Under the pieces are notes generated by a model, which searched no databases, had not been told where the DNA came from, and was given only the letters and a program-made list of their open reading frames with translations. From NCBI GenBank assembly GCA_019747615.1, contig JAIEQQ010000192.1, forward strand, positions 1-12,898: DNA of 12,898 nucleotides, read 5' to 3'. This document shows positions 1 to 12,821 of this stretch, one piece after another; position 1 is the first letter of the stretch, and each line of letters opens with the position of its first letter. The translations under genes and the position numbers were made by a program. This stretch comes from Phycisphaerales bacterium (GTDB taxonomy: Bacteria; Planctomycetota; Phycisphaerae; Phycisphaerales; UBA1924).

Positions 1-129
1 CGATTGCCGTCTGCCGATTGTCTGCGATAGGCAGGCGGGTCGCCATCGTTGACAGCCGTCAGCTTTCAGCTTTCAGGGGTCAGCAGAACGGATCTGACGC
101 AGCACTCAGCATTCGTTGCTCAGCACTGC
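1..129. repeat. Heptamer-rich intergenic repeat downstream of the pectate-lyase-like gene
   Basis: The stretch holds degenerate tandem heptamers of the CAGCTTT type (clearest at 52-76), followed by looser CAGCA/CAGCACT units up to the stop codon at 130. The first 30 bases repeat CGATTG and TCTGC words, and GGCAGGCGGG at 30-39 resembles one arm of the hairpin at 10149-10167. The 25 bases at 52-76 recur exactly at 4448-4472, and the 12 bases at 81-92 recur at 4484-4495. No gene or clear terminator is visible. The array resembles in kind the short tandemly repeated heptanucleotides known from cyanobacteria, but the sequence is different. Confidence 0.75.
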
Positions 130-390
130 TCAGAACGCGCACCCGTTAAAGTAGATCGCGAAGAAGAGGTTGTAATCGCCCTCGGTGACGCCGTTGTTGG
201 TTTCGAGCGTGCCGAAGGGGGGCAGGGGGGAGCCGTCGTCGTTGGCGATGTCGCACGCGGCGCCCGCGTCGAAGAACGTCGCGAAGAAGAGGTTGTAATC
301 GCCTTCGGTGACGCCGTTGTTGGTGCCGCCGGAGATGCCGACGGGCGGGAGGGCAGCGCCATCGTCGTACGCGATGTCCGCGGGGTTGCA
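130..390 (-). other. Tandem dockerin-like C-terminal cassette of the pectate-lyase-like protein
   Basis: The last 86 residues hold two units. Each begins with Cys and an acidic D-I-A-x-D-D-G stretch, then a Pro/Gly-rich loop, then NNGVTEGDYNLFF and an aromatic tail; the protein ends NGCAF. The pattern recalls the EF-hand-like C-terminal repeats of planctomycete secreted proteins, with the calcium loop split by an insertion. The 41-base DNA cores of the units lie at 160-200 and 283-323 and are almost identical to each other and to those of the two X proteins. Calcium binding and docking are inferred, not shown. Confidence 0.7.
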
Positions 391-3300
391 ACGGGGGTCG
401 GGGGGCGTGACGACGGAGATCGCGGCCGCGGCGCTGGTGGCCGAGCCGCAGGCGTTGGAGACGACCACGGTGTAGTCACCGGCGTCTTGCGGCTGAATGT
501 TCGTGATGCTGAGGGCTGAGCTGTTCGCGCCGGCGATGAAAGACCCGGCTCCGGTGGGTCCATCGATGAGCGGGACGTTGTTCCGCCGCCATTGGTAGCT
601 CAGGGTGGGTGCGCCGCGAGCGACGATGTTGTAGATGCCGCAGTTCATCCCGGTGACGTAAGACACCGACGCGACCGGCTGCGTGACGATCTGCGGGCAT
701 CGGGGCGCGAGAATGACCTTGATCGCCGGTGCCATTGTCGGCTGGCTCCACTCCTTGGTGAACCAGCTTTGTCCCTCGTTGGAGGCATCGACGCGCTTGG
801 CGATGAACGTCAAGCGGCTGTCGGTGTCCTGATTGATGAAGTCCATCAGGCGCTGGCCGCCGAAGGTGAGCTTGTCGGACTGGTTGTTGTTCTGGAAGCC
901 GGTGTTGTCCAGCAGATATGTGGAGAGGAACTGGCTGGTGGCGGGGTTGGCCAGGCCGCCGGAGTCGTCGTTGCCGACGGCGGTCTGCCATGTCACGAAG
1001 CCGGGACCGGACTCGACCCAGTTGTCGCCATTGGCGGATTGACGAACGCCGAAGATGTTGATCTGGCGCTTGCCATCGCCGATGCCGAAGAAAGTCTGCG
1101 ACAGCGAGCCGACGGCGGTGGTGATGTAGTTGTTTGTGAGGTCCAGCGATGACAGGTCCAGCCGCCAGTACGCGGCTTGGTGAAAGCCGCCCTGTGCCGG
1201 GGAGTGGAACGCGCCCATCGAGTCGCCCGTTCCAGGGCCGGGGAAGAAACGGTTGAGGTCGATGTCCGCGCCTGCGCCCTGTGACGTGCGGATGGTGATG
1301 AGGTTGGAATCTGGGTACAGGCAGGTCTGCGGGACGATCTGTTTGGGCTGGCTGGCGCTCTGCCAGGAGAACTGCACCTCGGCGCCGAAGCCACTGTCGT
1401 AGTACTCGAGCGTGACCTCGTAGGTGCGCGAGGAGTCGAGCGTGACGGTACCAGAACGCTCGGTTGCACCCTGATCGAACCAGTTGGTCACCACCGGGAG
1501 GCCGTCGATGAACAGGCGAGAGCCGTCGTCGGAGCGGGTAAAGAAGGTGTACGTCTCGCTGTATCGCGGCTGGATGCGGCCCGTCCACCGAGCGGAGAAG
1601 TTGTCGGCGTTCACCAGCGGGTCCGGCGAGCCCAGGCCATAGTTGAAGTTCACGACGGGGTCAACACGCGTGAGCACGGGCGAGCCGATGAAGTCGCGGT
1701 TGTTGAAGTACCTCGCGGTCATTCCGGTGCCAGCGGTGGTGCTGCTGTAGCTGAACGAGGCGCGAGTGCTTGGGGCGATGGCGCTCGGGTTCGTGGCGCG
1801 GTCGGTCAGCCCGCTCAGCACAATCTCGTGAGTGCCGGGCGACATGGGTGTGGTGGTGAGCGTGACGACGGTGGCGTCGCCTGAGAGCGCCGCCCCGGTG
1901 ACTGAGACGCCGCTGGGGCCGGTGATGACGTAGTTCGCCGGCGTTGTCGCGGGGCCCTGTGCGAGCGGCTCGGAGAACGTCAGGACGATCACGCGCGCGT
2001 CAAGCCCGACGCGAACGCTGGCCAGCCGCGGGGCCACGCTGTCCGTGAGCGTCGCTGCGTTCAGCGGCGCGCTCTGGGCGGATTCGACGCCGCCGCCGTT
2101 GACCGCCGAGACGCGGTAGCTGAAGTTCGTGGCGTCCGGGAGCGCGTCATCCAAGAGTGAGTTCGTCGTGGCCGCGCGATAGAACGCGCCGTTGCGGTAG
2201 ATGTTGTAGCGTGCGATCCCCGACTGCGCGTCGGTCGATGCGGGCCATGACAGTTGGATCGATGAGCGCGTGGTGCTCGAGATCGTCGGCGCCGGCACGC
2301 TGGGCGCGGTCGCGTCGATCTGGTAGCCGTTATAAAGAGCGATCTGCCCGCCGAGGTCCGAGTGGCCTCGCCCGAGCGGGAGCATGGCGCGTGTGAAGTT
2401 GGTGGTGACGCCGTTGCGAGTCTCGCGGACCCAGATCGCGTAGGCGTTGTTCGGATCGACATACGCCGACTCGGGCATCGACCACGAGAGGGAGCTCTCA
2501 TTGTTGATGACCATCGGTTGGGCGCGGTCGGAGATCGCGGTTGCGGGGTAGACCAGCCCGCCCATGATCGTTGCGCGGGCGCGGTTGCGATTCTCAAGCA
2601 CGATCGAGCTGCCCTCGGTCTTCAGGCCCAGAACGTAGAAGTCGCCCGCGTCGTTGATGATCAGCGGCGGGCCCGAGCCCTCGGGGTTGAGCTGGCGCGC
2701 CCACACGCGCTGGCCCTTGAAGACCATGTTGCTGCCGACGACGTTCTCAAGGAAGAGCTTGCCGCCGGAGACCGAGTTGCGATACGAGATGTCGCCATCG
2801 CGAACGACCACGGTGTTGGCGGTGGCCTGACCGATGAGATAGCCGGTGTTCGCGCCGGGGCCGGAGAACGCGCCGTTGATCCCGCTGAAGTGAACGATCG
2901 ACTGCGAGCCCGGCGGCACCAGGAACAGCGGGCCGCCCTCGGTGGCCAGCGGCGCGTTGGTCACGATGTCGGACATCAGCCCCTCGACCCGTTGGACGCT
3001 CGGCCCAACGCGGATCGTGCGGCTGACGTAATAGCGCCCGCTCGGGAAGTACACCACCGGCGCACCGGAGTTCATCGCGGCCTGCACCGCGTCCGTATCG
3101 TCGAGGTTGTCGTTCTCGATCGCGCCGAAGGACTTGATGCTGACCCACTGCGCAACCGGGATGCTCGGCGCGCTGGGGGTCTCCTCGATCGGCAGGTTCA
3201 GGACCGCGGTCGGCGAGGGGTTGATTGACGCGGGGGCATCGGTGGTGAACTGTGAGACCACGCCGCCGGGGACGAGCGTGGGGGTCGTGGTGCTGAAACT

Positions 3301-4260
3301 CTTGTCACGCACCGCGTTGGCGTAGCCGCTGGTGGTGACGTTGCGGAGGATGAGCACGCCGCCGGAGTTCTCGTTGATGATGGCGTCGCCGGTGGGGCTT
3401 CCGCCGTGCAGGGTCGCGCCGTCGATCACCACATGACCCCAGGCGCCGGGATTCGAGTCGCTCCGCAGGACCGGGACGGTGTTGGTGCTGACAAGGTTCC
3501 GGATCTGCAGCGGCAGTCGCCAGACGTAGATGCCCTCGGTGCGCTGGTTCAGCAGCGTGAGGTTCTCAAAGACCACCGAGTACTCCTGCGGCGCGCCGAC
3601 GTAGCCGGTGTCGAAGCCGTCGATCGTGAGGTTGCGGATCAGCAGCGGGCCCGGGAAGTTGAAGCCCTGATTGAGCCCGGTGTGGCCGCGCTTGAGCGGG
3701 TCAGACGAACGGATCGTGACGTTCTCGATGCGTCCGGTGTTGTTCGCCTGAAACTCCAGGCCGATCGCGCCGGGGTTGTTGCTGCCGATATCGATTGTCA
3801 CATCCCGCAGGTAGTTGCGGAACTGGTTGGCGGTGTTGCCCTCGTACGCGTCGATGAACGCCAGCGGCGAGGCGGTGCTTCCGAACCCCGCGGCCCCATC
3901 GTTCAGACGAAGCACCACGCCAGACTTGGACTCGCCCTGGAGCGTGAAGAAACCGCCGGAGCCGATGCCGCCCCAGTTCAGTCGGCCGGAGAAGTTGTAC
4001 GTGCCGTTAGGAACAAAGAGGATGCGGCTGGTGCCGACCGTTGCGTTGAGCGCGTTCTGGAAGGCCGCGAGGTCGTCGGTGCCGTCGTTGGGCGTTGCGC
4101 CAAAGGTCGTGACGAGAACGATGTTCGCGTTCGGCGGCGGCTCATAGACTTGGCCCTGTGCGAGACCGCAGAGCGCCAGCGAGATGCCGATGCTCGCAGA
4201 GGTGAGAATGGGATGAACGGGGCGACCGATCGACGTCACAACACAATCGAGCGAGTTCAT
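130..4260 (-). CDS. Secreted multidomain protein: two pectate-lyase-superfamily (GH55-like) domains, FN3, Ig, PA14, DNRLRE-like, tandem dockerin-like tail
   Basis: Probably an extracellular polysaccharide-binding or polysaccharide-degrading protein of 1376 residues. The ATG at 4260 is preferred because GGAGG lies 4 bases upstream; an in-frame ATG at 4275 would add five residues. A signal peptide covers about residues 1-36 (hydrophobic stretch, then AQG). Two beta-helix openings of the FGA...DD...Q.A...FP.G.Y type start near residues 52 and 377, each followed by helix-like repeats. Tandem helices of this kind occur in GH55 exo-beta-1,3-glucanases, but I cannot place catalytic residues. Then come fibronectin III (about 650-740), an SbsA-type Ig-like domain (about 742-838), PA14 (about 845-985, with RSDDGSRLFIDG), a DNRLRE-like region (about 985-1187), an Ig domain (about 1188-1284, with DAGDYTVVVSN) and two dockerin-like units (1291-1376). 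It is last in the visible gene series, after a 268-base spacer, so it may have its own promoter. The substrate is unknown. Confidence 0.9.
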   Translation of the reverse strand: MNSLDCVVTSIGRPVHPILTSASIGISLALCGLAQGQVYEPPPNANIVLVTTFGATPNDGTDDLAAFQNALNATVGTSRILFVPNGTYNFSGRLNWGGIGSGGFFTLQGESKSGVVLRLNDGAAGFGSTASPLAFIDAYEGNTANQFRNYLRDVTIDIGSNNPGAIGLEFQANNTGRIENVTIRSSDPLKRGHTGLNQGFNFPGPLLIRNLTIDGFDTGYVGAPQEYSVVFENLTLLNQRTEGIYVWRLPLQIRNLVSTNTVPVLRSDSNPGAWGHVVIDGATLHGGSPTGDAIINENSGGVLILRNVTTSGYANAVRDKSFSTTTPTLVPGGVVSQFTTDAPASINPSPTAVLNLPIEETPSAPSIPVAQWVSIKSFGAIENDNLDDTDAVQAAMNSGAPVVYFPSGRYYVSRTIRVGPSVQRVEGLMSDIVTNAPLATEGGPLFLVPPGSQSIVHFSGINGAFSGPGANTGYLIGQATANTVVVRDGDISYRNSVSGGKLFLENVVGSNMVFKGQRVWARQLNPEGSGPPLIINDAGDFYVLGLKTEGSSIVLENRNRARATIMGGLVYPATAISDRAQPMVINNESSLSWSMPESAYVDPNNAYAIWVRETRNGVTTNFTRAMLPLGRGHSDLGGQIALYNGYQIDATAPSVPAPTISSTTRSSIQLSWPASTDAQSGIARYNIYRNGAFYRAATTNSLLDDALPDATNFSYRVSAVNGGGVESAQSAPLNAATLTDSVAPRLASVRVGLDARVIVLTFSEPLAQGPATTPANYVITGPSGVSVTGAALSGDATVVTLTTTPMSPGTHEIVLSGLTDRATNPSAIAPSTRASFSYSSTTAGTGMTARYFNNRDFIGSPVLTRVDPVVNFNYGLGSPDPLVNADNFSARWTGRIQPRYSETYTFFTRSDDGSRLFIDGLPVVTNWFDQGATERSGTVTLDSSRTYEVTLEYYDSGFGAEVQFSWQSASQPKQIVPQTCLYPDSNLITIRTSQGAGADIDLNRFFPGPGTGDSMGAFHSPAQGGFHQAAYWRLDLSSLDLTNNYITTAVGSLSQTFFGIGDGKRQINIFGVRQSANGDNWVESGPGFVTWQTAVGNDDSGGLANPATSQFLSTYLLDNTGFQNNNQSDKLTFGGQRLMDFINQDTDSRLTFIAKRVDASNEGQSWFTKEWSQPTMAPAIKVILAPRCPQIVTQPVASVSYVTGMNCGIYNIVARGAPTLSYQWRRNNVPLIDGPTGAGSFIAGANSSALSITNIQPQDAGDYTVVVSNACGSATSAAAAISVVTPPDPRCNPADIAYDDGAALPPVGISGGTNNGVTEGDYNLFFATFFDAGAACDIANDDGSPLPPFGTLETNNGVTEGDYNLFFAIYFNGCAF

Positions 4261-4390
4261 TGAGCCTCCGGTCATCGCGCCGCAAGGTGCGATGGAGCAC
4301 CGGTCTCGTGTGGGCGAGATCCCGACGCTGAGCGGAGCTTACCACATCGGCGCCGAAAGCGAAACAAAACTTGGAACAATTAACAATCCC

Positions 4391-4414
4391 CCCACGGCTT
4401 GGAGAAGCCGTGGG
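4391..4414. repeat. Perfect 10-bp inverted repeat (REP-like hairpin)
   Basis: CCCACGGCTT (4391-4400), a GGAG loop, then its exact reverse complement (4405-4414). It lies about 115 bases past the stop of the frameshifted X gene. No T-run follows on the minus strand, where the next bases are GGGGATTGTTAATTG, so a classical intrinsic terminator is unlikely. A REP-type palindrome or a transcript-stabilising hairpin fits better. Confidence 0.7.
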
Positions 4415-4447
4415 CGATTGGTATTCACACGATGACCGGTTGCATGA

Positions 4448-4495
4448 ACAGCCGTCAGCTTTCAGCTTTCAGCCTTCAGCCTTCAGCAGAACGGA
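4448..4495. repeat. CAGCTTT/CAGCCTT heptamer tandem array
   Basis: Consecutive 7-base units CAGCTTT, CAGCTTT, CAGCCTT, CAGCCTT lie between a left flank ACAGCCGT and a right flank CAGCAGAACGGA. Both flanks and the first two units occur in the array at 52-92, which lacks the two CAGCCTT units. The array has therefore varied in copy number between two places in this window. It lies just downstream of a cassette-bearing gene. Confidence 0.8.
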
Positions 4496-4528
4496 GCCGC
4501 CTCAGCACTTATCGCGCAGCACTCTGGC

Positions 4529-4786
4529 TCAGAGAGCGCAGCCGTTGAAGTAGACGGAGAAGAAGAGGTTGTAATCGCCTTCGGTGACGCCGTTGTTGGT
4601 GTCGAAGATACCGAAGGGGGGCAGGGGGGAGCCGTCGTCGTTGCTGATGTCGCACCAGGGGGCTGCGTCGAAGAAGCCGGCGAAGAAGAGGTTGTAATCG
4701 CCTTCGGTGACGCCGTTGTTGGAGCTTTGAGCGGTGGCGATGCTGAGGGGGACGCCGTCGTCGGTGGCGATATCGGCGGGTGAGCA
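4529..4786 (-). other. Tandem dockerin-like cassette of X copy A (downstream of the frameshift)
   Basis: Eighty-five residues hold two units, CSPADIATDDG...NNGVTEGDYN and CDISNDDG...NNGVTEGDYN, ending NGCAL. The DNA cores are at 4559-4599 and 4682-4722. The cassette is intact and shows the same constraint as the other copies although it lies in a different frame from the start codon. That suggests the frameshift is recent or an artefact. Confidence 0.7.
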
Positions 4787-5634
4787 GGGGCTGGGGAGTT
4801 GGCTGCCTCGGATGATGAAGGGCATGTCTTGGGCGACATCGACGCCGGAGGCGGGCTTGCCCGGATCGAGCAGCGGGTCCAGGCGTCGGGGATCGATGGT
4901 GAGTTTGAGAGCCGGAGCTGGCGGGCGTTGCTCTGGGGCGTGCCGGCGCGCGTGCGGCGGCCGGGGATCGTGAGCGAAGGGCAGAACGCGGCGGTTGTTG
5001 GCGAGGTCATCTCGATCTGCCAATCGAGCCAGAGGGTGCCCGAGCGAGCGTCCATTGGCGGCGAGATGCCGACTCGGAGTTGCCAGATGGCGCGGTCGGT
5101 CGTCGGTGCGCTGGGAAGGGGCGCGCCGATGATCGGCGCGGTGCAGAACGCTCGGAGCATGTTCGTCGGCGTGGCGTTGATGAGGCGGTTGGTGGTGGTG
5201 TCGCCGAAGCGGACGGTGCTGCCGGGCGCTTCGGGCTCGCCTTGCCAGATCCGGAGGTTGACGCCGGCGAACGGGTTCGGGTTCAGCGGGTCTGAGCTGT
5301 AGGCGTAGAAGACGATCTCATCGATGGACCAGATGCCGCTGACGGCGAAGTCATCGGCGAAGCGGAAGCCGCTGGCGGCGTCGTGTCCGGAGAAGCCGGC
5401 GACGGAGTTGGCCGAGACGGTGTAAGTGGCTTGCAGCTCGCTCCACACTTTGCCGCTGGGTGCTTGGGCGCCGCTGAGCGTGAGCGCGCCGGTGGCGAGG
5501 CCCGGGTCGGAGCGATCGGCTCGGAGGGCGTTGCTGTAGAGATCGTCGGCGACGCATGTTGACGGGCACGCGTCGGCGACGAGCAACGCGATGGCGAACG
5601 CGGCGAGTATGGAGAATGCGGGTCGTGGGGTCAT
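4529..5634 (-). pseudogene. Secreted protein X copy A with dockerin-like tail, single-base frameshift
   Basis: This is a paralogue of the gene at 10176-11300, and I know of no characterised family for its body. It starts at the ATG at 5634 with a signal peptide (hydrophobic to about residue 20, likely cut near CVA-DD). The body shares with copy B the motifs WSELQAT, ADDF, IDEIV.YA, NPF.G, IW.GEP, STVRFGD and TNRLI, and looks like an all-beta extracellular domain. The reading frame is lost just after Trp252: the frame beginning at 5634 becomes a Ser/Thr/Pro-rich nonsense tail, while the true tail (DPGKPAS, LPFIIRG-like, then two dockerin-like units) continues in another frame to the stop at 4529. 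One missing C in the CCC run (complement of 4875-4877) would restore one 368-residue protein with DAWTPLLDPGKPA, matching DAWLPIVDTGKPA in copy B. It could be a real mutation or a sequencing indel. It lies 33 bases after DUF1501-A. Confidence 0.8.
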
Positions 5635-5667
5635 GCGTGGCGTCTCACATGCGGCGTTGAACGCGAA

Positions 5668-7119
5668 TCAATCGCAGATGTTCAGGAACGAGGGCGTGAA
5701 GTTCGGGAAGATGGATGAGAGGTTGGAACCGTTGCGGAGGCGTTTGGAGACGATCTCGGCCAGGGCGTGGCGGAGGTCGGTGGTCATCTGCACGTCGGAG
5801 CCGTCTGGGGGCAGGTCTGAGGGAAGGCCGGGCCAAGTGGCCAGGACGCGCCCGCCGCGGACTTGGGAGCCCATGACGAGGGCGACGTTGCCGTAGCCGT
5901 GTTCGGTGCCGATGGTGCCATTCTCGCCGACGCGTCGGCCGAACTCGGAGATGACAACGACGGTGACGCGCCGGTTGCGAGCGGCGATGACATCAAGGAA
6001 GAAGGCGTTGAGCGCTTGGGCGAGGTTGCCGAGGTTTGTCGCGAGCAGGCCGGTGAAGGCGCCGAGGGTGGGGTTGAAGAGGAACTGCGAGACGTGGGTG
6101 TCCCAGCCGGTGAGGTCGATCGCAACGGCCTCGACAAACTGATTGACCACGGCGTCGTCGTTGGCTTGCAAGAGCGCGGCGGTGGAGCGGAGGGCGTAGC
6201 CGAGCGAAGAGCCGGGGTAGACCGCGCCGCCGGCGGGGGTGTAGCCGATCTCGCTGATGCGGTTCAGGCGGCTGATGGTGTTGAGGGTGTTGGCGGCTGC
6301 TGCGGCGGCGGGCGCGGGGGAGCTGGCGAACATCTGGCCCAGGGTGTTGAGGCGCGCGTCGCTGGTGGCGCTGGTGCCGGTGAGGCCGTAGCCCGCGGGC
6401 GCGGTGGCGGTGACGGCGGCGATGTTCTGGAGTTGTGGGACGGGGCCGGGGTTGGTGGCGAGGTTTGAGATCGCCAGTGCCAGGGGTGAGCCGGCCAGAA
6501 GGCGCTGCAAGCCGTCGGCGACGCCGATCGCGCGGAGCGTGCTGGCGGGGTTGACCGGTGGCGAAGAGGCCAGGTGGCGACCGAGCCAGCCGGTGACGAT
6601 GTTCGGGCTGCTGCCCAGGCCATTCTCGAGCCAGCGCTGGGCATCAAAGTGTGATTTGCTGGTGTTGTCGATGCCGGTGGCGTGCATGATCAGCAGCTTG
6701 CCGGCCTGATAGGCCGGGAGCAGCGCGCCCATGGCGGGGTGGAGGCCGAAGTCGAACGAGCGGGTACCGGAGTTGATGCGGGCGTTGGCCAGCGCCAGGG
6801 CGCGCTGGCCGATGGGCTTGGTGGTGTCGTCGGGGGCGAAGACGCGCAGGTTTGGTCGGGTCTGGGGCGAGGCGTAGACGGGGTCGTTGAAGGGGACGCA
6901 GAGGGAGAGGCCGTCAACGCCGCCGCGGAGATTGATGGAGACGATGACGTCGCGGGCATCGGTGGGAGGGGAGCCGGCGTAGGCGACGCGGGGCATCCAC
7001 GTCGGCACGGAACCGAGGATCGCGGCGCCGGCGGTGCCAGCGCCGGCGACCTGGAGGAAGCGGCGGCGCGAGAGACTTTCGAACTCTTCGCAGCACAGGC
7101 GTTGTTGGGCGTCAGACAC
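5668..7119 (-). CDS. DUF1501 family Tat-exported protein, copy A
   Basis: A 483-residue protein of the DUF1501 family (PF07394), whose function is not established; the family is related to the alkaline phosphatase/sulfatase fold. I chose the GTG at 7119 because GGAG lies 8 bases upstream, and because the resulting protein matches copy B in N-terminal sequence and in exact length. A longer frame to a GTG at 7173 would overlap DUF1800. A twin-arginine motif SRRRFLQ (17-23) follows a conserved Cys-Cys pair (9-10), with likely cleavage after AYA (48). Family hallmarks are LRGGVDGLS (64-72), SHFDAQRW, SEFGRR (391-396) and ENGTIGTEHG (399-408), which could contribute metal- or phosphate-type ligands by analogy only. 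It lies 44 bases after the DUF1800 stop and 33 bases before X copy A, so it is very likely co-transcribed with both. Confidence 0.92.
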   Translation of the reverse strand: MSDAQQRLCCEEFESLSRRRFLQVAGAGTAGAAILGSVPTWMPRVAYAGSPPTDARDVIVSINLRGGVDGLSLCVPFNDPVYASPQTRPNLRVFAPDDTTKPIGQRALALANARINSGTRSFDFGLHPAMGALLPAYQAGKLLIMHATGIDNTSKSHFDAQRWLENGLGSSPNIVTGWLGRHLASSPPVNPASTLRAIGVADGLQRLLAGSPLALAISNLATNPGPVPQLQNIAAVTATAPAGYGLTGTSATSDARLNTLGQMFASSPAPAAAAAANTLNTISRLNRISEIGYTPAGGAVYPGSSLGYALRSTAALLQANDDAVVNQFVEAVAIDLTGWDTHVSQFLFNPTLGAFTGLLATNLGNLAQALNAFFLDVIAARNRRVTVVVISEFGRRVGENGTIGTEHGYGNVALVMGSQVRGGRVLATWPGLPSDLPPDGSDVQMTTDLRHALAEIVSKRLRNGSNLSSIFPNFTPSFLNICD

Positions 7120-7163
7120 GGTGCGGGCTCCAGACGGTGAGGGCGGGAACACCAGAGAGTCGG

Positions 7164-8969
7164 TCAGTACCACTGATTCGAAGGTGAGCAGAGGGCAAGG
7201 CCAAGAGCGTCGCGGCGCTGCAGGCTGGTGGGCGTGGTGCCGAGGATGTTGAGGATGCGGGCGCGATCCGCGGCGCTGAGCATGCCCGCCAGAGCGCCCT
7301 GGTCGATCCGTGTGATGACGTCGTTGAGCAGTTCAAGATCGCCGAAGAACGCGGCGTCGTCGACTATCGCGCCGGTATCGCCGCTGGCATCGCCGTTGGA
7401 CTTGGTGACCAGCGAGGAGAAGAAGCACCAGCGCGGGAGCACCTGCGTGGCCCAGTACGACGCGGACTTCGGGTAGCCATCGGGGGCCGACCAGGCGAAG
7501 GGCAGATGGCCGGCGCGAGAGAACTGATTGCGGAGCGTCGAGCGCGAGGTGATGGTGGAAGGGAGCACGCGGAGCGCGCCGACATAGGCGTGGAACGGGC
7601 GCTTATAGAGGGCCGGGGCGCTGGCGAGGATGTTGGGCGAGAAGAGCACCCGGAGCATCGCCTTGATGTCGCCGAGGCCCTGCGGGTTTGCGGTGTTCAG
7701 GTACGCGTCGCGCACGGCGTTGATGACGCCGGTCGGTGTGCCCTCGCCGAGGAAGTGCACACAGAGCTTGCGGCTGATATTGGTCGCGGTGGCGGGATGG
7801 GCCATGAGCATGTCGAAGACGTCCTGTGCGTCTTGGCGGCCGTTGTTGCCGAGGCGACCGGCGGGGATGACGGCGGAGCCGAAGACGGTGCCGAGGACTT
7901 TGGCGTCGGTGTCGTGACGGCCGGCGATGACGCCGGTGAGTTGCGTGTTGTTGAAGATGACGCGGTTCTTGATGCCGGTAGCGTTGAAGTAGTTGAGGCC
8001 GCGGAGCTGGGTGCGGGTGCCGCCGGGGGAGATGTCGTCGAACGCGCCTCCGTATCGCCCCCAGCCGGTGAGGCATCGCGCGACGCTGACGATGGTGGCC
8101 TGCACGCTGGCGGCCGGGAAGCTGTAGAGGTGCTCTGCGCCGATGGTGTGCAGTTCGAGCAGCTCGCGCGAGTAGTTCTCGTTGAGCTGATCGTCGCTGG
8201 AAATCTCGTTGTTCAGGTAGGCCACCATCGCTGGCGAACGTGCGACGGCGTTGAAGAGTTGCGGGAAGCTGGTCAGGGCGTACTGACGAATGTCGCGGTC
8301 GTGAAGGGTCTTGAGGTAATACGCCTCGGGGCTGTAGATGTCGACGTTGAAGTGGTCGCCCCAGAACTCGACCATGCGCTCGAAGAGCTGGCGGTTGGAG
8401 TACGCGGCCCGGACGATGGTCGCGTCGATGAGCTCGTTGAAGATGACGGCGTTGTTGGCCACCAGCGTGGTGTCGTAGAGCTGAAACGCCGGGCAGGTGA
8501 GCGTGAAGGATGGAGACAGAAGGCTGGTGAGCGCCGGGTTCTCGGTGATCGCGGTGTGCGCGAGCTGGCGCTCGAGGTAGGCGGAGTAGCCCAGCGTGTT
8601 CGCAAGGGTGAGATCTGCGGTGGTGATCCCGAAGCTCGTGCGGGCCAGAAGGCGGTTGATGAGCGAGGCGGGCTCGACATCGGCGTAAACGTCAACGGGC
8701 GCCGCGGCGATCGCGTGCTTTGGTGCGATCGCGGTGGCGACTGCGCCGATGCCGCCGGCGCCGCCGACGAGGCCGCCGAGCGAACGGAGCAGGTGGCGGC
8801 GCGAGGTGATCAATGGCGAGGGCGTGTGCGCCGCCGCTGGGGCGGGCGCAGTGGCGGTGGTGATCGCGGCTGCTGCGATTGCAACAGGTCTGCGAGCGGC
8901 GTCCGTCGCAGCATCCGACGATGGCGGGGGGCTCCCGCCCGCGCGTGGGGCATCGATCGGCGAAGTCAT
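7164..8969 (-). CDS. DUF1800 family exported protein
   Basis: A 601-residue protein of the DUF1800 family (PF08811), function unknown, usually encoded next to DUF1501. The ATG at 8969 is supported by AAAGGA 8 bases upstream. An open frame continues to 9176, but its extra 69 residues are not family-like. An Ala/Pro-rich N-terminal extension (1-54) precedes a twin-arginine-type signal SRRHLLRSLGG (56-66) and a Gly/Ala hydrophobic stretch ending AIAAA. Family hallmarks in order are INRLLARTSFG (104-114), EFWGDHFNVD (201-210), NENYSRELLELHTIG (263-277), LTGWG (300-304), GRHDTDAKVLG and ISRKLCVHFLG. The protein ends NQWY. The 207 bases upstream make a separate promoter possible. DUF1800 and DUF1501 are presumed partners at or beyond the cytoplasmic membrane, from co-occurrence only. 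Confidence 0.92.
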   Translation of the reverse strand: MTSPIDAPRAGGSPPPSSDAATDAARRPVAIAAAAITTATAPAPAAAHTPSPLITSRRHLLRSLGGLVGGAGGIGAVATAIAPKHAIAAAPVDVYADVEPASLINRLLARTSFGITTADLTLANTLGYSAYLERQLAHTAITENPALTSLLSPSFTLTCPAFQLYDTTLVANNAVIFNELIDATIVRAAYSNRQLFERMVEFWGDHFNVDIYSPEAYYLKTLHDRDIRQYALTSFPQLFNAVARSPAMVAYLNNEISSDDQLNENYSRELLELHTIGAEHLYSFPAASVQATIVSVARCLTGWGRYGGAFDDISPGGTRTQLRGLNYFNATGIKNRVIFNNTQLTGVIAGRHDTDAKVLGTVFGSAVIPAGRLGNNGRQDAQDVFDMLMAHPATATNISRKLCVHFLGEGTPTGVINAVRDAYLNTANPQGLGDIKAMLRVLFSPNILASAPALYKRPFHAYVGALRVLPSTITSRSTLRNQFSRAGHLPFAWSAPDGYPKSASYWATQVLPRWCFFSSLVTKSNGDASGDTGAIVDDAAFFGDLELLNDVITRIDQGALAGMLSAADRARILNILGTTPTSLQRRDALGLALCSPSNQWY

Positions 8970-9176
8970 CGCCAAAGTCCTTTCGGTTGTCGTCAGAAAC
9001 CCGTGAGGCAGAGGAGCGGGGTGTTTAAATCCCGAGTGGGAGGAACACACTCTCGAGCGAAGCCCGTAGCGATCTCCGTGTGGGTCATGGAGAACATAGC
9101 GACGACTTGCTTCGTTTGCAAAATGAAACCGTTGATTTCGATATGAACGCGTGGCGTTCGCGTCAATCAAGTACAA
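8970..9176 (-). promoter_or_regulatory. Candidate promoter/operator and leader upstream of DUF1800
   Basis: The spacer is richer in A+T than its surroundings. Reading the minus strand, TTGACG (complement of 9161-9166) could be a -35 box, with a poor -10 TATCGA 17 bases on. A dyad GAACGC-CAC-GCGTTC (9145-9159) sits inside that spacer, where an operator would be expected. The leader carries AAAGGA just before the ATG. Planctomycete promoters are poorly matched by the E. coli consensus, so only the dyad is certain; its role is inferred. No small gene is convincing here. Confidence 0.35.
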
Positions 9177-9980
9177 TTACGTCATTCGGCGTCGGCGGCT
9201 GACAATTGCGCCGAGCGTGAGCAGGGCGATCGACGACGGCTGCGGGATGTAGTTGATCGTGAGCTGCGGGCGGAAGTCGGGATTGGTGGCGAACTGCGAG
9301 TCAAAGCGCTTAGCGGTGAGCGGGACGCCCTCGGTCGTTTGCAGCAGCCAGCCGAAGTTCTGCGACGGATTGGCCAGCCAGCGTGCGACATCGGCGGTGA
9401 GCTGCGGCGAGGACCACTGGTAGAAGCCAACGCCGCCGACGGAGTTGGTGGCCAGCGCGAGCGGATCAAAGTCGCCGCCGGGCGTGGACCAGGCAGGGCC
9501 GGATTGCGTGGCCGAATCGAAGTTGCGGTAGAGCCAGGTGGCGTCGCCCTCCTCGGCGGGCGCGCCGCCGCCGCCCTGGCCGGGTGGCGTGCTGTTGCCG
9601 CTGCCCCAACTGGCGTTCATGGCGTGGATCGAGACGGGCTCGATGCCGGCGACGCTGCGCGACATGTGGAGGCGGAGGGAGACGGAGGTGATGACGGCGC
9701 CGGCGGGCAGTGGACTGGAGACATCGAACTGGAGCAAGCCGCGCCGGATCAGGAGGCTGTCGGTCATGCCGGTGAAGAGCCACGGGGAGTTTCCGGCGCT
9801 GGTGAGGCCGGCGGGGTCTTCAAAGAGGGTGTTGGATTGCGAGGCGCCGATCGTGATCGATTGCGCGTTGGTCGCCGGCGCGACGGTCAAGGAGGCGAAC
9901 GTCGCAAACAACGCGGCGACGGCGGTGGTAGACGCAAGACGGGGCGACGCGGGCTGTGTACGCATCCTGTGAAGGTACAT
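9177..9980 (-). CDS. DNRLRE-like secreted protein with PEP-CTERM-like sorting tail
   Basis: A 267-residue surface protein. An N-terminal signal peptide runs to about residue 39 (Arg/Ser-rich start, hydrophobic AVAALFATFASLTVA, then NAQ). The body matches the DNRLRE-type extracellular beta-sandwich, best seen in RRGLLQFDVSSPLPAGAVITSVSLRLHM, with later SPQLTADVARWL and LTINY. A Gly-rich loop (GQGGGGAPAEEG) interrupts it. The C-terminus is PQPSSIALLTLGAIVSRRRR, a PEP-CTERM arrangement of short Pro motif, hydrophobic helix and Arg cluster, but with Gln where Glu is usual. Such tails are recognised by exosortases, none of which is encoded here. The start is uncertain: ATG 9980 has no clear ribosome-binding site, and ATG 9965 has AGG touching it. 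It sits between the two DUF1501-containing blocks and lacks the dockerin-like cassette. Confidence 0.85.
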   Translation of the reverse strand: MYLHRMRTQPASPRLASTTAVAALFATFASLTVAPATNAQSITIGASQSNTLFEDPAGLTSAGNSPWLFTGMTDSLLIRRGLLQFDVSSPLPAGAVITSVSLRLHMSRSVAGIEPVSIHAMNASWGSGNSTPPGQGGGGAPAEEGDATWLYRNFDSATQSGPAWSTPGGDFDPLALATNSVGGVGFYQWSSPQLTADVARWLANPSQNFGWLLQTTEGVPLTAKRFDSQFATNPDFRPQLTINYIPQPSSIALLTLGAIVSRRRRMT

Positions 9981-10033
9981 GGCGTGGGGGGCTCAGGCCA
10001 ATGAAATTGTCGGCTTGCGGGCAGGATTCACTG

Positions 10034-10080
10034 GTCAGTCGGGAGCTGTCAGTTGTCAGCATTCAGCTGTCAGCAGAATC
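10034..10080. repeat. Degenerate TCAG heptamer array
   Basis: Units of the type GTCAGTC, AGCTGTCAG, TTGTCAG, CATTCAG, CTGTCAG and CAGAATC follow one another with a roughly 7-base period and end in TCAGCAGAA, as do the arrays at 52-92 and 4448-4495. It is more diverged than those two. It again lies behind a gene with the dockerin-like cassette. Confidence 0.65.
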
Positions 10081-10148
10081 AATGGCGAGCTTCATGGCTC
10101 CACCACGCTGCCACTTTGCCACTTCTCACCGACAGTGAGTCCACGGAA

Positions 10149-10167
10149 GGCAGGCGGGACGCCTGCC
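10149..10167. terminator. GC-rich hairpin just after X copy B, possible terminator or REP element
   Basis: GGCAGGCG (10149-10156), a GGA loop, and CGCCTGCC (10160-10167) form a perfect 8-bp stem whose near end is 8 bases past the stop codon at 10176-10178. A short CCCC-AC-GGGG palindrome lies between the two. There is no T-run, so termination would be of the non-canonical kind; an interspersed palindromic repeat is equally likely, since a partial match occurs at 30-39. Confidence 0.45.
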
Positions 10168-10175
10168 CCACGGGG

Positions 10176-10445
10176 TCAGAACGAGCAGCCTTCGAAGTAG
10201 ATCGAGAAGAAGAGGTTGTAATCGCCTTCGGTGACGCCGTTGTTGGTGGTGAGCGTGCCGAAGGGTGGCAGCGGCGAGCCGTCGTCGTTGGCGATGTCGC
10301 ACCACTGGCGCGCGTCGAAGAAGCCTGAGAAGAATGCGTTGTAATCGCCTTCGGTGACACCGTTGTTGGTGACGAGCGGGTTGGGCAGCTCGGCGGGGTT
10401 GTTGATGGGCTGGCCCGCGTCGTTGGCGATGTCCGCGGCGTTGCA
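10176..10445 (-). other. Tandem dockerin-like cassette of X copy B
   Basis: Eighty-nine residues hold two units starting CNAADIANDAG and CDIANDDG, each running into NNGVTEGDYN, and ending EGCSF. The first unit has the longest loop (INNPAELPNPLVT) and a Leu-to-Ala change in DYNAFF. DNA cores are at 10206-10246 and 10329-10369, the latter being the most diverged of the six in the window. Confidence 0.7.
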
Positions 10446-11369: not shown

Positions 11370-12821
11370 TCAGGTGCAGATGTTCAGGAAGTTCGGCGTG
11401 AAGCCCGGGAAGATGCTCGGGAGGTTGGCGCTGTTGTTCAGCCGCTTGGAGACGATCTCGGCCAGGATGTGGCGCAGGTCGGTGGTGACCTGAAGATCCT
11501 GGTTGGTTGCGGGCACGCCGGAGGGAAGGCCGGGCCAGGTGGTCAGGACGCGCCCGCCCAGGACGTGCGAGCCCAAGACCATGGACATGTTGCCGTAGCC
11601 GTGATCGGTGCCGACGGTGCCGTTCTCGCCGACGCGCCGGCCGAACTCCGAAACGACGACGACGGTGACGCGCTTGTTGCGTGTGGCGATGACGTCGGTG
11701 AAGAACGCCGCGAGGGATTGGGCGAGCCCGTTGAGGTTCGTGACGAGCTGGCCGGTGAAGACGCCGGAGGCGACGTTGAAGGAGAACTGGGCGGAGTGCG
11801 TGTCCCAGTTGCCGACATCGATCGCGACGGCCTCAACGAACTGGTTGACGCTGGCGTCGTCGTTGGCGTTGATGAGCGCGGCGGTTGATCGCAGGGCGTA
11901 GCCGAGCGAGCTCGTGGGGTAGACCGCGCCGCCAGCGGGCTGGTAGCCGGTGGCGCCGATCTGGTTGAGGCGGACGATGGTGTTGAGCGTGTTGGCGGCG
12001 GCGGCGCCGAGCGGATCAGGGACGCCGGCGTGGGCGTTACCGATGAAGGCGCGGCGCGCTGTGCTGGAAGCGCTGGTGCCAGCGACGCCGTAGCCGCCGG
12101 AGTTCGAGCTGGTGACGGCGGCGAGGTTGTTCAGCAGCGGCGGGTTGCCGGGGTTGCTCTGGAGATTGGGGACCGGCAGAGCCAGTGGCGCACCGGCGAG
12201 GGTGCGCTGAAGACCGTCAGCAACGCCGATGGCGCGGAGGGCCGTCTGCGGGTTGATCGGCGGGGTGCTGGCCAGATGGCGGCCGAGCCAGCCGGTGAAG
12301 ACGTTGTTGCTATTGGCCTGGCCGTTCTCCATCCATCGCTGGGCGTCGAAGTGCGACTTGTTGGTGCTGGTGAGGCCGGTGGCCTGCACGATCAGGAACT
12401 TGCCGGCCTGATATGCCGGCAGCAGAGGGCTGAGCGCGGGGTGGAGGCCGAAGTTGAAGGTGTTGCTGCCGCTGGTGGCGCTGGCGTTGGCGATGGCGAT
12501 CGCGCGCCGACCGACGGGCTGCGTCGTGTCGTCGGGCGCGTAGACGCGGAGGTTGGGTCGTGTGGCGGGCGCGGCGTAGACGGGGTCGTTGAACGGGACG
12601 CAGACGGAGAGGCCGTCAACGCCGCCGCGGAGATAGATGGAGACGACGACGTCGCGAGCGGAGGTCGGCGGCGTGCCGGCGTATGCGACGCGAGGGAGCC
12701 ACGCTGGCGCGGTTGAGAGCACTGCGGCGGCGGTGGCGCCGGCGCCGGTGACCTGAAGGAAACGACGGCGCGACAGCTCGGCGTACTCGTCGCAGCAGAA
12801 CTTGGTGGAGTGATCAGACAC
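11370..12821 (-). CDS. DUF1501 family Tat-exported protein, copy B
   Basis: A 483-residue paralogue of the protein at 5668-7119, of identical length. It starts at the GTG at 12821 with GGAG 7 bases upstream; the GGAG-N7/8-GTGTCTGA arrangement is shared with copy A. The Cys-Cys pair (9-10), twin-arginine motif SRRRFLQ (17-23) and a cut after AYA (48) are conserved. Hallmarks LRGGVDGLS, SHFDAQRW, SEFGRR (391-396) and ENGTVGTDHG (399-408) are all present, so it looks functional. By hand alignment 71 of the last 97 residues are identical to copy A, so the duplication is old enough for both to have diverged under constraint. It heads the visible part of an operon with X copy B. The biochemical role of the family is unknown. 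Confidence 0.92.
   Translation of the reverse strand: MSDHSTKFCCDEYAELSRRRFLQVTGAGATAAAVLSTAPAWLPRVAYAGTPPTSARDVVVSIYLRGGVDGLSVCVPFNDPVYAAPATRPNLRVYAPDDTTQPVGRRAIAIANASATSGSNTFNFGLHPALSPLLPAYQAGKFLIVQATGLTSTNKSHFDAQRWMENGQANSNNVFTGWLGRHLASTPPINPQTALRAIGVADGLQRTLAGAPLALPVPNLQSNPGNPPLLNNLAAVTSSNSGGYGVAGTSASSTARRAFIGNAHAGVPDPLGAAAANTLNTIVRLNQIGATGYQPAGGAVYPTSSLGYALRSTAALINANDDASVNQFVEAVAIDVGNWDTHSAQFSFNVASGVFTGQLVTNLNGLAQSLAAFFTDVIATRNKRVTVVVVSEFGRRVGENGTVGTDHGYGNMSMVLGSHVLGGRVLTTWPGLPSGVPATNQDLQVTTDLRHILAEIVSKRLNNSANLPSIFPGFTPNFLNICT

Follow-up and report, generated by a model that had tools for sequence, protein, structure and literature searches.

A C-terminal cassette on varied proteins of a Phycisphaerales bacterium as a putative remodelled branch of the GC-type dockerin family

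Contig JAIEQQ010000192.1 of a Phycisphaerales bacterium (assembly GCA_019747615.1; 12,898 nucleotides, analysed at full length and hereafter called the window) encodes three proteins that close with copies of one short cassette, and this locus raises the questions (i) whether the cassette is a genuine C-terminal module, (ii) to which family it belongs, and (iii) what it may do for the proteins that carry it. A preliminary description of the window had taken it for a tag shared by unrelated secreted proteins, similar to dockerin/EF-hand tails with a split calcium loop and possibly used together with DUF1501/DUF1800 proteins. The comparisons reported here show a real and abundant C-terminal module, which is probably a remodelled offshoot of an already named dockerin family and has a plausible, putative function.

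The coordinates (Table 1), lengths (86, 85, and 89 amino acids) and two-unit repeat of the three window cassettes were confirmed, as was their G-C-hydrophobic end, which reads G-C-[AS]-[FL] immediately before the stop. Each copy comprises two units and contains three Cys residues. Cassette 1 shares 73% identity with cassette 2 and 72% with cassette 3, the latter two being 69% identical to each other, and their DNA is 85-87% identical to that of cassette 1 over 199 nt (family D1). The bodies preceding the cassettes are of two kinds, one with PF12708, PA14, and Ig domains and the other, in the protein here called X copy B, without a Pfam match at E≤1. Low-scoring matches on the cassettes themselves to PF05627 (13.5-15.9 bits, cut-off 20.3; about 28 residues) and PF18754 (12.9-15.5 bits, cut-off 27; about 20 residues) were taken for chance. 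Phage and plasmid records searched with cassette 3 (tblastn) gave no match, and a mobile-element origin is therefore unsupported.

The three-copy alignment was used to scan a contig set with one genome per species (84,980 species). All 37 loci recovered belong to a single metagenome-assembled genome (MAG), Phycisphaerales Bin_57_2_2_sub (JALHNK01); the scan finds close relatives only, because it is based on two peptide patterns. When the whole of JALHNK01 (3.5 Mb) was searched with the three-copy profile, 99 matches were obtained at E≤1e-3, a few of them being pieces of one cassette, and a database search with cassette 3 gave 210 candidates, of which 133 proteins match at E≤0.01. Because of these two results the recurrence of the cassette is not attributed to chance. 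In a sample of the order, 2 of 201 genomes were matched by the cassette profile.

The cassette is observed almost exclusively at protein ends. It stops 0-3 amino acids before the stop in 72 of 73 copies scoring at least 50 bits (the 3 window copies and 70 from JALHNK01 loci) and 27 residues before it in the remaining one. Two database searches, each restricted by protein length, returned 133 proteins (120 listed) and 104 proteins, the latter including the window's own protein; the core motif lies within 30 amino acids of the protein end in 111/120 listed proteins of the first search and in 100/104 of the second, the exceptions in the second being two C-terminal variants missed by the pattern (P0154, P0163), a protein with a tail extension (P0181) and an internal copy (P0219). 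The relatives are thus neither confined to the window paralogues nor internal as often as C-terminal, since only 10 of 224 listed relatives have an internal cassette, all of them just upstream of an Rhs core.

The bodies in front of the cassette are equally observed to be diverse. Seventy-one bodies of at least 60 amino acids fell into 31 groups (BLASTP, 1e-5), the largest with 36 members. A Pfam scan at E≤1e-5, which took in 66 of the 67 JALHNK01 open frames of 150-1450 amino acids, found 42 models in the bodies of these 66 proteins, overlapping models (e.g., Ig) being counted apart, and among the 25 models listed were beta-propellers, Kelch, Ig, lamin-tail, GSDH, MauG-type peroxidase, beta-lactamase fold, FGE-sulfatase, deiminase, and cyclophilin. 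Signal-peptide-like starts, assigned by our own heuristic, were found in 52/65 cassette frames vs. 45/185 neighbors. The idea of a tag on diverse, mostly exported-looking proteins is borne out by the C-terminal position, the number of body groups and these starts.

The calcium loop of the EF-hand is an uninterrupted stretch of 12 residues with the motif D-x-[DN]-x-[DN]-G-x-[IVL]-x-x-x-D. No such uninterrupted loop is found in the cassette. In an alignment of 70 cassettes (3 from the window and 67 from JALHNK01) the spacing from the first to the last Asp of the loop is 21-42 in unit 1 (70/70) and 21-29 in unit 2 (68/70 measurable), compared with 18-29 in the bridge sequences introduced below and 11 in a plain 12-residue EF loop, which confirms the interruption of the calcium loop. 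In its first half this loop has the sequence D-[IV]-A-x-D-x-G. Invariant in the first loop are positions 1, 3, 7, 10, and 12 (D, A, G, E, D; columns D5, A7, G26, E29, D31) and in the second loop positions 1, 5, 7, and 12 (D, N, G, D; columns D47, N65, G67, D72), while unit 1 has Asn at position 5 in 69/70 and Val at position 8 in 65/70. Residue counts were made with patterns in which Asp is set at positions 1 and 12 and some other positions are constrained; the columns given as invariant are independent of these patterns.

Only one family model, NF041540 (dockerin_GC, the GC-type dockerin; name and profile from NCBIfam), spans the whole cassette. In JALHNK01 it matches 44 places at E≤0.01, and the 4 over the curated cut-off are also cassette places of the three-copy profile. 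Among 198 sampled genomes of the class, the three-copy profile matches 2 and NF041540 matches 82 (43 over the cut-off), 13 of the 198 having at least 28 scored places. Genome G120 is matched by both profiles and forms a bridge: its copy on C29 scores 36.3 bits with the cassette profile (best G120 score 52.3) and 60.2 bits with NF041540, and its sequences (C-S-P-A-D-I-A-N-T-D-G...P-D-[GN]-x-[VIL]-D-N-G-D-F...G-C) stand between the window form and the canonical C-P-A-D-L-N-G-D-G-V-L-N-I-F-D-F...G-C. Profiles of 70 cassette rows, 10 of the 27 G120 matches and 12 canonical rows were compared using hhalign, with E-values of 3.5e-20 for cassette and bridge and 1.1e-7 for bridge and canonical form, each applying to a single comparison. 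The canonical profile in turn has matches among solved structures, both calcium-binding EF-hands and dockerins of cellulosomes (2y3n_B, 2.7e-8; 1ohz_B, 2.5e-5). N-N-G-V could be taken to mean that the EF loop has lost one residue; this interpretation was dropped, as no deletion is needed, given the alignment and the N at position 6 in 8/20 bridge units.

The proposed likeness to dockerin/EF-hand tails is thus upheld by the profile chain through G120 and by the four JALHNK01 cassettes over the NF041540 cut-off. For these two reasons, and because an X relative carries a GC-type dockerin at the same place and EF-hand motifs occur near the Rhs site (both described below), we read the cassette from its sequence as a divergent, homologous branch of NF041540 with 10-31 additional residues interrupting the EF-hand loop.

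Relatives of the X proteins show that the tail can be exchanged. A search with the X body only retrieved 7 proteins, 5 of which are X proteins already known with a cassette end. P0225 is a full-length X relative (40% identity to X copy B, 152/383 columns) and ends in NF041540 at 61.1 bits. P0226, a distant relative of the X body (35% over 209 columns), ends in a tail of the type IX secretion system (T9SS; TIGR04183, 33.8 bits, cut-off 23), and the X body therefore occurs with very different C-terminal sorting modules.

The Rhs core of the ten proteins with an internal cassette was identified by TIGR03696 in nine and by reading in P0219; in JALHNK01 the only Rhs core found has the cassette immediately upstream. 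In eight other genomes, chosen for their GC-type dockerins, at least one canonical EF-hand motif lies within about 150 amino acids upstream of the core in 19/29 Rhs loci and two lie there in 9/29 (30 loci of 53 matches; upstream stretch short in several). In L149 (G001:C60:16873-17376), P0082, P0085, P0087, P0097, P0099, P0101, P0102, P0105, P0109, and P0219 the cassette follows a V-R-Y-T-x-[FY]-G-x-P-R stretch and precedes the Rhs core.

The end Cys residues occur together. Counting duplicates once and omitting four sequences without two recognizable cores, 175 distinct cassettes comprise 159 with both the first and the last Cys, 13 with neither, 1 with the first only and 2 with the last only (C-terminal cassettes: 159, 5, 0, and 2 of 166); the 159 of 166 combine the C-terminal place with the Cys start and G-C end of aligned family members. 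The 13 lacking both represent few independent events (8 Rhs proteins, 4 of one family as judged from their flanks, and 1 alone). This joint occurrence suggests that the first Cys and that of the terminal G-C form a disulfide clasping the cassette ends. Three Cys per cassette, as first described, hold for the window copies but not as a constant feature, the middle Cys being present in 133/159 C-terminal cassettes with both end Cys. An AlphaFold2 model of cassette 1 (mean pLDDT 94.6, pTM 0.83) has two helices, at residues 29-39 and 70-82, both preceded by a long ordered loop; the model obtained for X copy B at full length was of low confidence (mean pLDDT 38.7, 7 sequences) and was set aside.

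We consider it likely that the cassette is an extended-loop relative of GC-type dockerins that serves as a C-terminal anchor or docking module clasped by a disulfide. A signal peptide would export the cassette protein, and the tail would fold outside the cytoplasm into two F-hand (loop-helix) units. Their EF loops retain Asp at position 1 and N-N-G-V-T-E-G-D at positions 5-12, each loop being split by a presumably ordered insert (D-D-G-x-P-L-P-P-F-G...). A disulfide between the first Cys and the terminal G-C would probably clasp both ends, and the tail would be an interchangeable module that fastens the body to an envelope partner. Disulfide, calcium, docking, partner, and surface location are putative parts of this reading.

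Several results weigh against it. The window copies remain under the NF041540 cut-off of 29 (17.0-20.4 bits alone, 14-16.9 in longer proteins), the direct hhalign comparison of cassette and canonical profiles is weak (E 0.0037, probability 9%), and cassette and bridge profiles gave no meaningful match to PDB sequences. Foldseek found no solved structure for the cassette model in the PDB at E≤0.001, nor did a second look. EF position 3 is Ala in 70/70 copies of unit 1 (column A7), and calcium binding is therefore doubtful. An earlier scan of the best-scoring Rhs loci of the class (10/30 readable) found 0 with an EF motif. No receptor for the cassette was found, and cohesin (PF00963, E≤0.01) was found in 0/8 genomes, a negative limited by possible incompleteness of the JALHNK01 MAG, by the chance of overlooking a remote cohesin and by a control that exceeded the cut-off in just 1 of 14; a partner, if any, is therefore probably not a classical cohesin.

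The absence of cohesin or any other receptor from our results, the compact and confident cassette model, the coupled end Cys and the lack of this Cys pair in the internal Rhs copies would also suit a C-terminal stabilizing cap, that is, a folded, disulfide-clasped domain which protects exported proteins and has no dedicated partner. Such a cap is unlikely in our view, given that the distant X relative P0226 carries a T9SS sorting tail at the cassette place and that the loop and helix motifs of the 70 aligned cassettes are nearly identical, which would seem to go beyond the needs of a cap.

The strict C-terminal position could instead mark a processed sorting signal, cleaved and exchanged for an anchor, as with PEP-CTERM/exosortase or T9SS tails, and the T9SS tail of P0226, the PEP-CTERM-like protein in the window and exosortase matches at E≤1e-3 in 8/8 genomes (above the cut-off in 6, partial and below it in JALHNK01) point the same way. 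Against this, the three cassettes have no PEP-CTERM match at E≤1, neither a membrane helix nor a basic tail is visible in the cassette sequence, and the cassette models as a folded domain of 86 amino acids, compared with 24 positions for PEP-CTERM; we regard this explanation as very unlikely. Searching the 8 genomes for SprA_N, a component of the T9SS, gave no match, and the control was equally silent, hence this is no evidence. Considering the exosortase matches, the anchor or docking module would therefore be a channel beside PEP-CTERM.

A classical cohesin-dockerin complex has its appeal in the homology to dockerins. Passages of PMC6461901 propose such a cohesin-dockerin 'planctosome' for freshwater planctomycetes, and Limihaloglobus sulfuriphilus is named in a passage of PMC11557425 as a scaffoldin-containing bacterium of the Planctomycetes-Verrucomicrobia-Chlamydiae (PVC) group. 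Canonical type I dockerins (PF00404, over the cut-off) were observed close before the cassette in the same protein in P0100 (326-372) and P0213 (822-870), a proximity which is also in line with such a complex. The lack of PF00963 matches reported above argues against it, as do the listed Pfam bodies, which are mostly beta-propeller, Kelch, Ig, and other binding domains with single assorted enzymes, so that a cellulosome or planctosome of this kind is extremely unlikely. A bolder form of the docking proposal, which we think rather unlikely, is a cohesin-free anchoring channel: the dockerin calcium loop would have been opened and reshaped to form a new binding face, possibly one that does not need calcium, by which nearly a hundred varied exported proteins would dock on one envelope receptor, the domain also being built into the Rhs core.

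The suggested tie to DUF1501/DUF1800 holds for the X genes; for the cassettes at large it is at most putative. The DUF1800-DUF1501-X set is duplicated in the sister genome JALHNK01 (L022, L023). The window contains one complete set and the DUF1501-X part of the other, whose DUF1800 gene lies past the window edge and is present in L023. JALHNK01 has 4 DUF1501 matches vs. 99 cassette matches. Among the 198 genomes, DUF1501 was present in 19/19 with at least 15 NF041540 hits vs. 102/179 others (p 7.7e-5; threshold chosen afterwards), in 21/23 vs. 100/175 at a threshold of 10 (p 0.0012), in 30/34 vs. 91/164 at 5 (p 2.2e-4) and in 56/82 vs. 65/116 at 1 (p 0.10, not significant); these statistics ignore kinship, and the top hit numbers are lower bounds of at least 28. 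DUF1501-DUF1800 pairs are known elsewhere, e.g., beside bacterial chitin synthases according to a passage of PMC5122149. DUF1501 and DUF1800 remain neighbors of X and are not a proven part of the cassette system.

Along the direction of transcription the window genes follow the order DUF1501-B, X-B, DNRLRE protein, DUF1800, DUF1501-A, X-A, pectate-lyase-like protein (Table 1). Owing to the frame change in X copy A its N and C parts lie in different frames, the former matching the JALHNK01 orthologue locus and the latter the intact orthologue P0017; this may be a sequencing error or a true pseudogene. The PEP-CTERM-like tail of the DNRLRE protein stays below both cut-offs (TIGR02595, 11.6 bits vs. 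16; PF07589, 16.2 vs. 20.7). An Rfam search of the window gave no match. A 7-base periodicity, with, e.g., runs of GCTGAAA-like heptamers, was noted in the DNA directly 3' of the cassette stops (window 23-132, 4422-4531, and 10069-10178; 3' flanks in L001-L037), where the mean lag-7 score was 0.517 in 73 flanks vs. 0.408 in 170 controls (one-sided p 9e-8) and lags 5, 6, 8, and 9 were not significant.

Table 1. Cassettes and genes in the window (cassette scores refer to NF041540, cut-off 29).
Feature	Position	Strand	Details
Cassette 1 (86 aa, C-terminus of pectate-lyase-like protein)	133..390	-	units ~256-390 and ~133-255; 20.4 bits alone, profile 2-67 of 67
Cassette 2 (85 aa, C-terminus of X copy A)	4532..4786	-	17.0 bits alone, profile 1-67 of 67
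Cassette 3 (89 aa, C-terminus of X copy B)	10179..10445	-	19.5 bits alone, profile 3-67 of 67
Pectate-lyase-like protein, 1381 aa	130..4275	-	PF12708, fn3 (below cut-off), PA14, Ig, cassette
X copy A	4529..5634	-	frame change ~4890-4990; intact orthologue P0017
DUF1501 protein A	5668..7173	-	PF07394 73.8 bits; twin-arginine translocation (Tat) signal TIGR01409 18.7 bits, cut-off 16.7
DUF1800 protein	7164..9176	-	PF08811 282.4 bits
DNRLRE-domain protein, sub-threshold PEP-CTERM-like tail	9177..9980	-	NF033679 61.8 bits
X copy B, 374 aa	10176..11300	-	signal-peptide-like start (by eye); body without Pfam match; cassette
DUF1501 protein B	11370..12821	-	69% identical to copy A; Tat-like start TIGR01409 16.6, just below cut-off 16.7

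In the literature searched, no paper using the term 'GC-type dockerin' was found, nor was 'dockerin' paired with 'without cohesin'. The cassette variant shows the extent to which the dockerin fold can be remodelled, N-N-G-V-T-E-G-D-Y-N provides a sharp marker by which a large group of tagged proteins within a single lineage can be recognized, and the exchange of tails between bodies makes the question of anchoring testable.

Compared with known systems, the cassette resembles PEP-CTERM/exosortase in being a C-terminal tag on exported proteins in genomes that also have exosortase matches, and differs in the missing PEP-CTERM match of the three window copies. On P0226 the C-terminus is occupied by the T9SS type A sorting domain (TIGR04183/PF18962), which may have a comparable sorting or anchor role, but the cassette belongs to a different family, and fold and machinery of the T9SS domain are different. 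With type I dockerin (PF00404) it would have in common the paired loop-helix units suggested by the model, and it shares the occurrence of such EF-hand motifs near the same Rhs site and the capacity to share one protein; it is set apart by window cassettes without a PF00404 match at E≤1 and by the lack of a cohesin in the 8 genomes. From the GC-type dockerin NF041540 it is distinguished by the loop split by 10-31 residues, the frequent middle Cys, the scores of the window copies below the curated cut-off and N-N-G-V-T-E-G-D where the family has D-G-x-[VIL]-x-x-x-D, while the C-terminal place, two EF-like units, the Cys start, the G-C end and the many copies in some genomes of the class are common to both.

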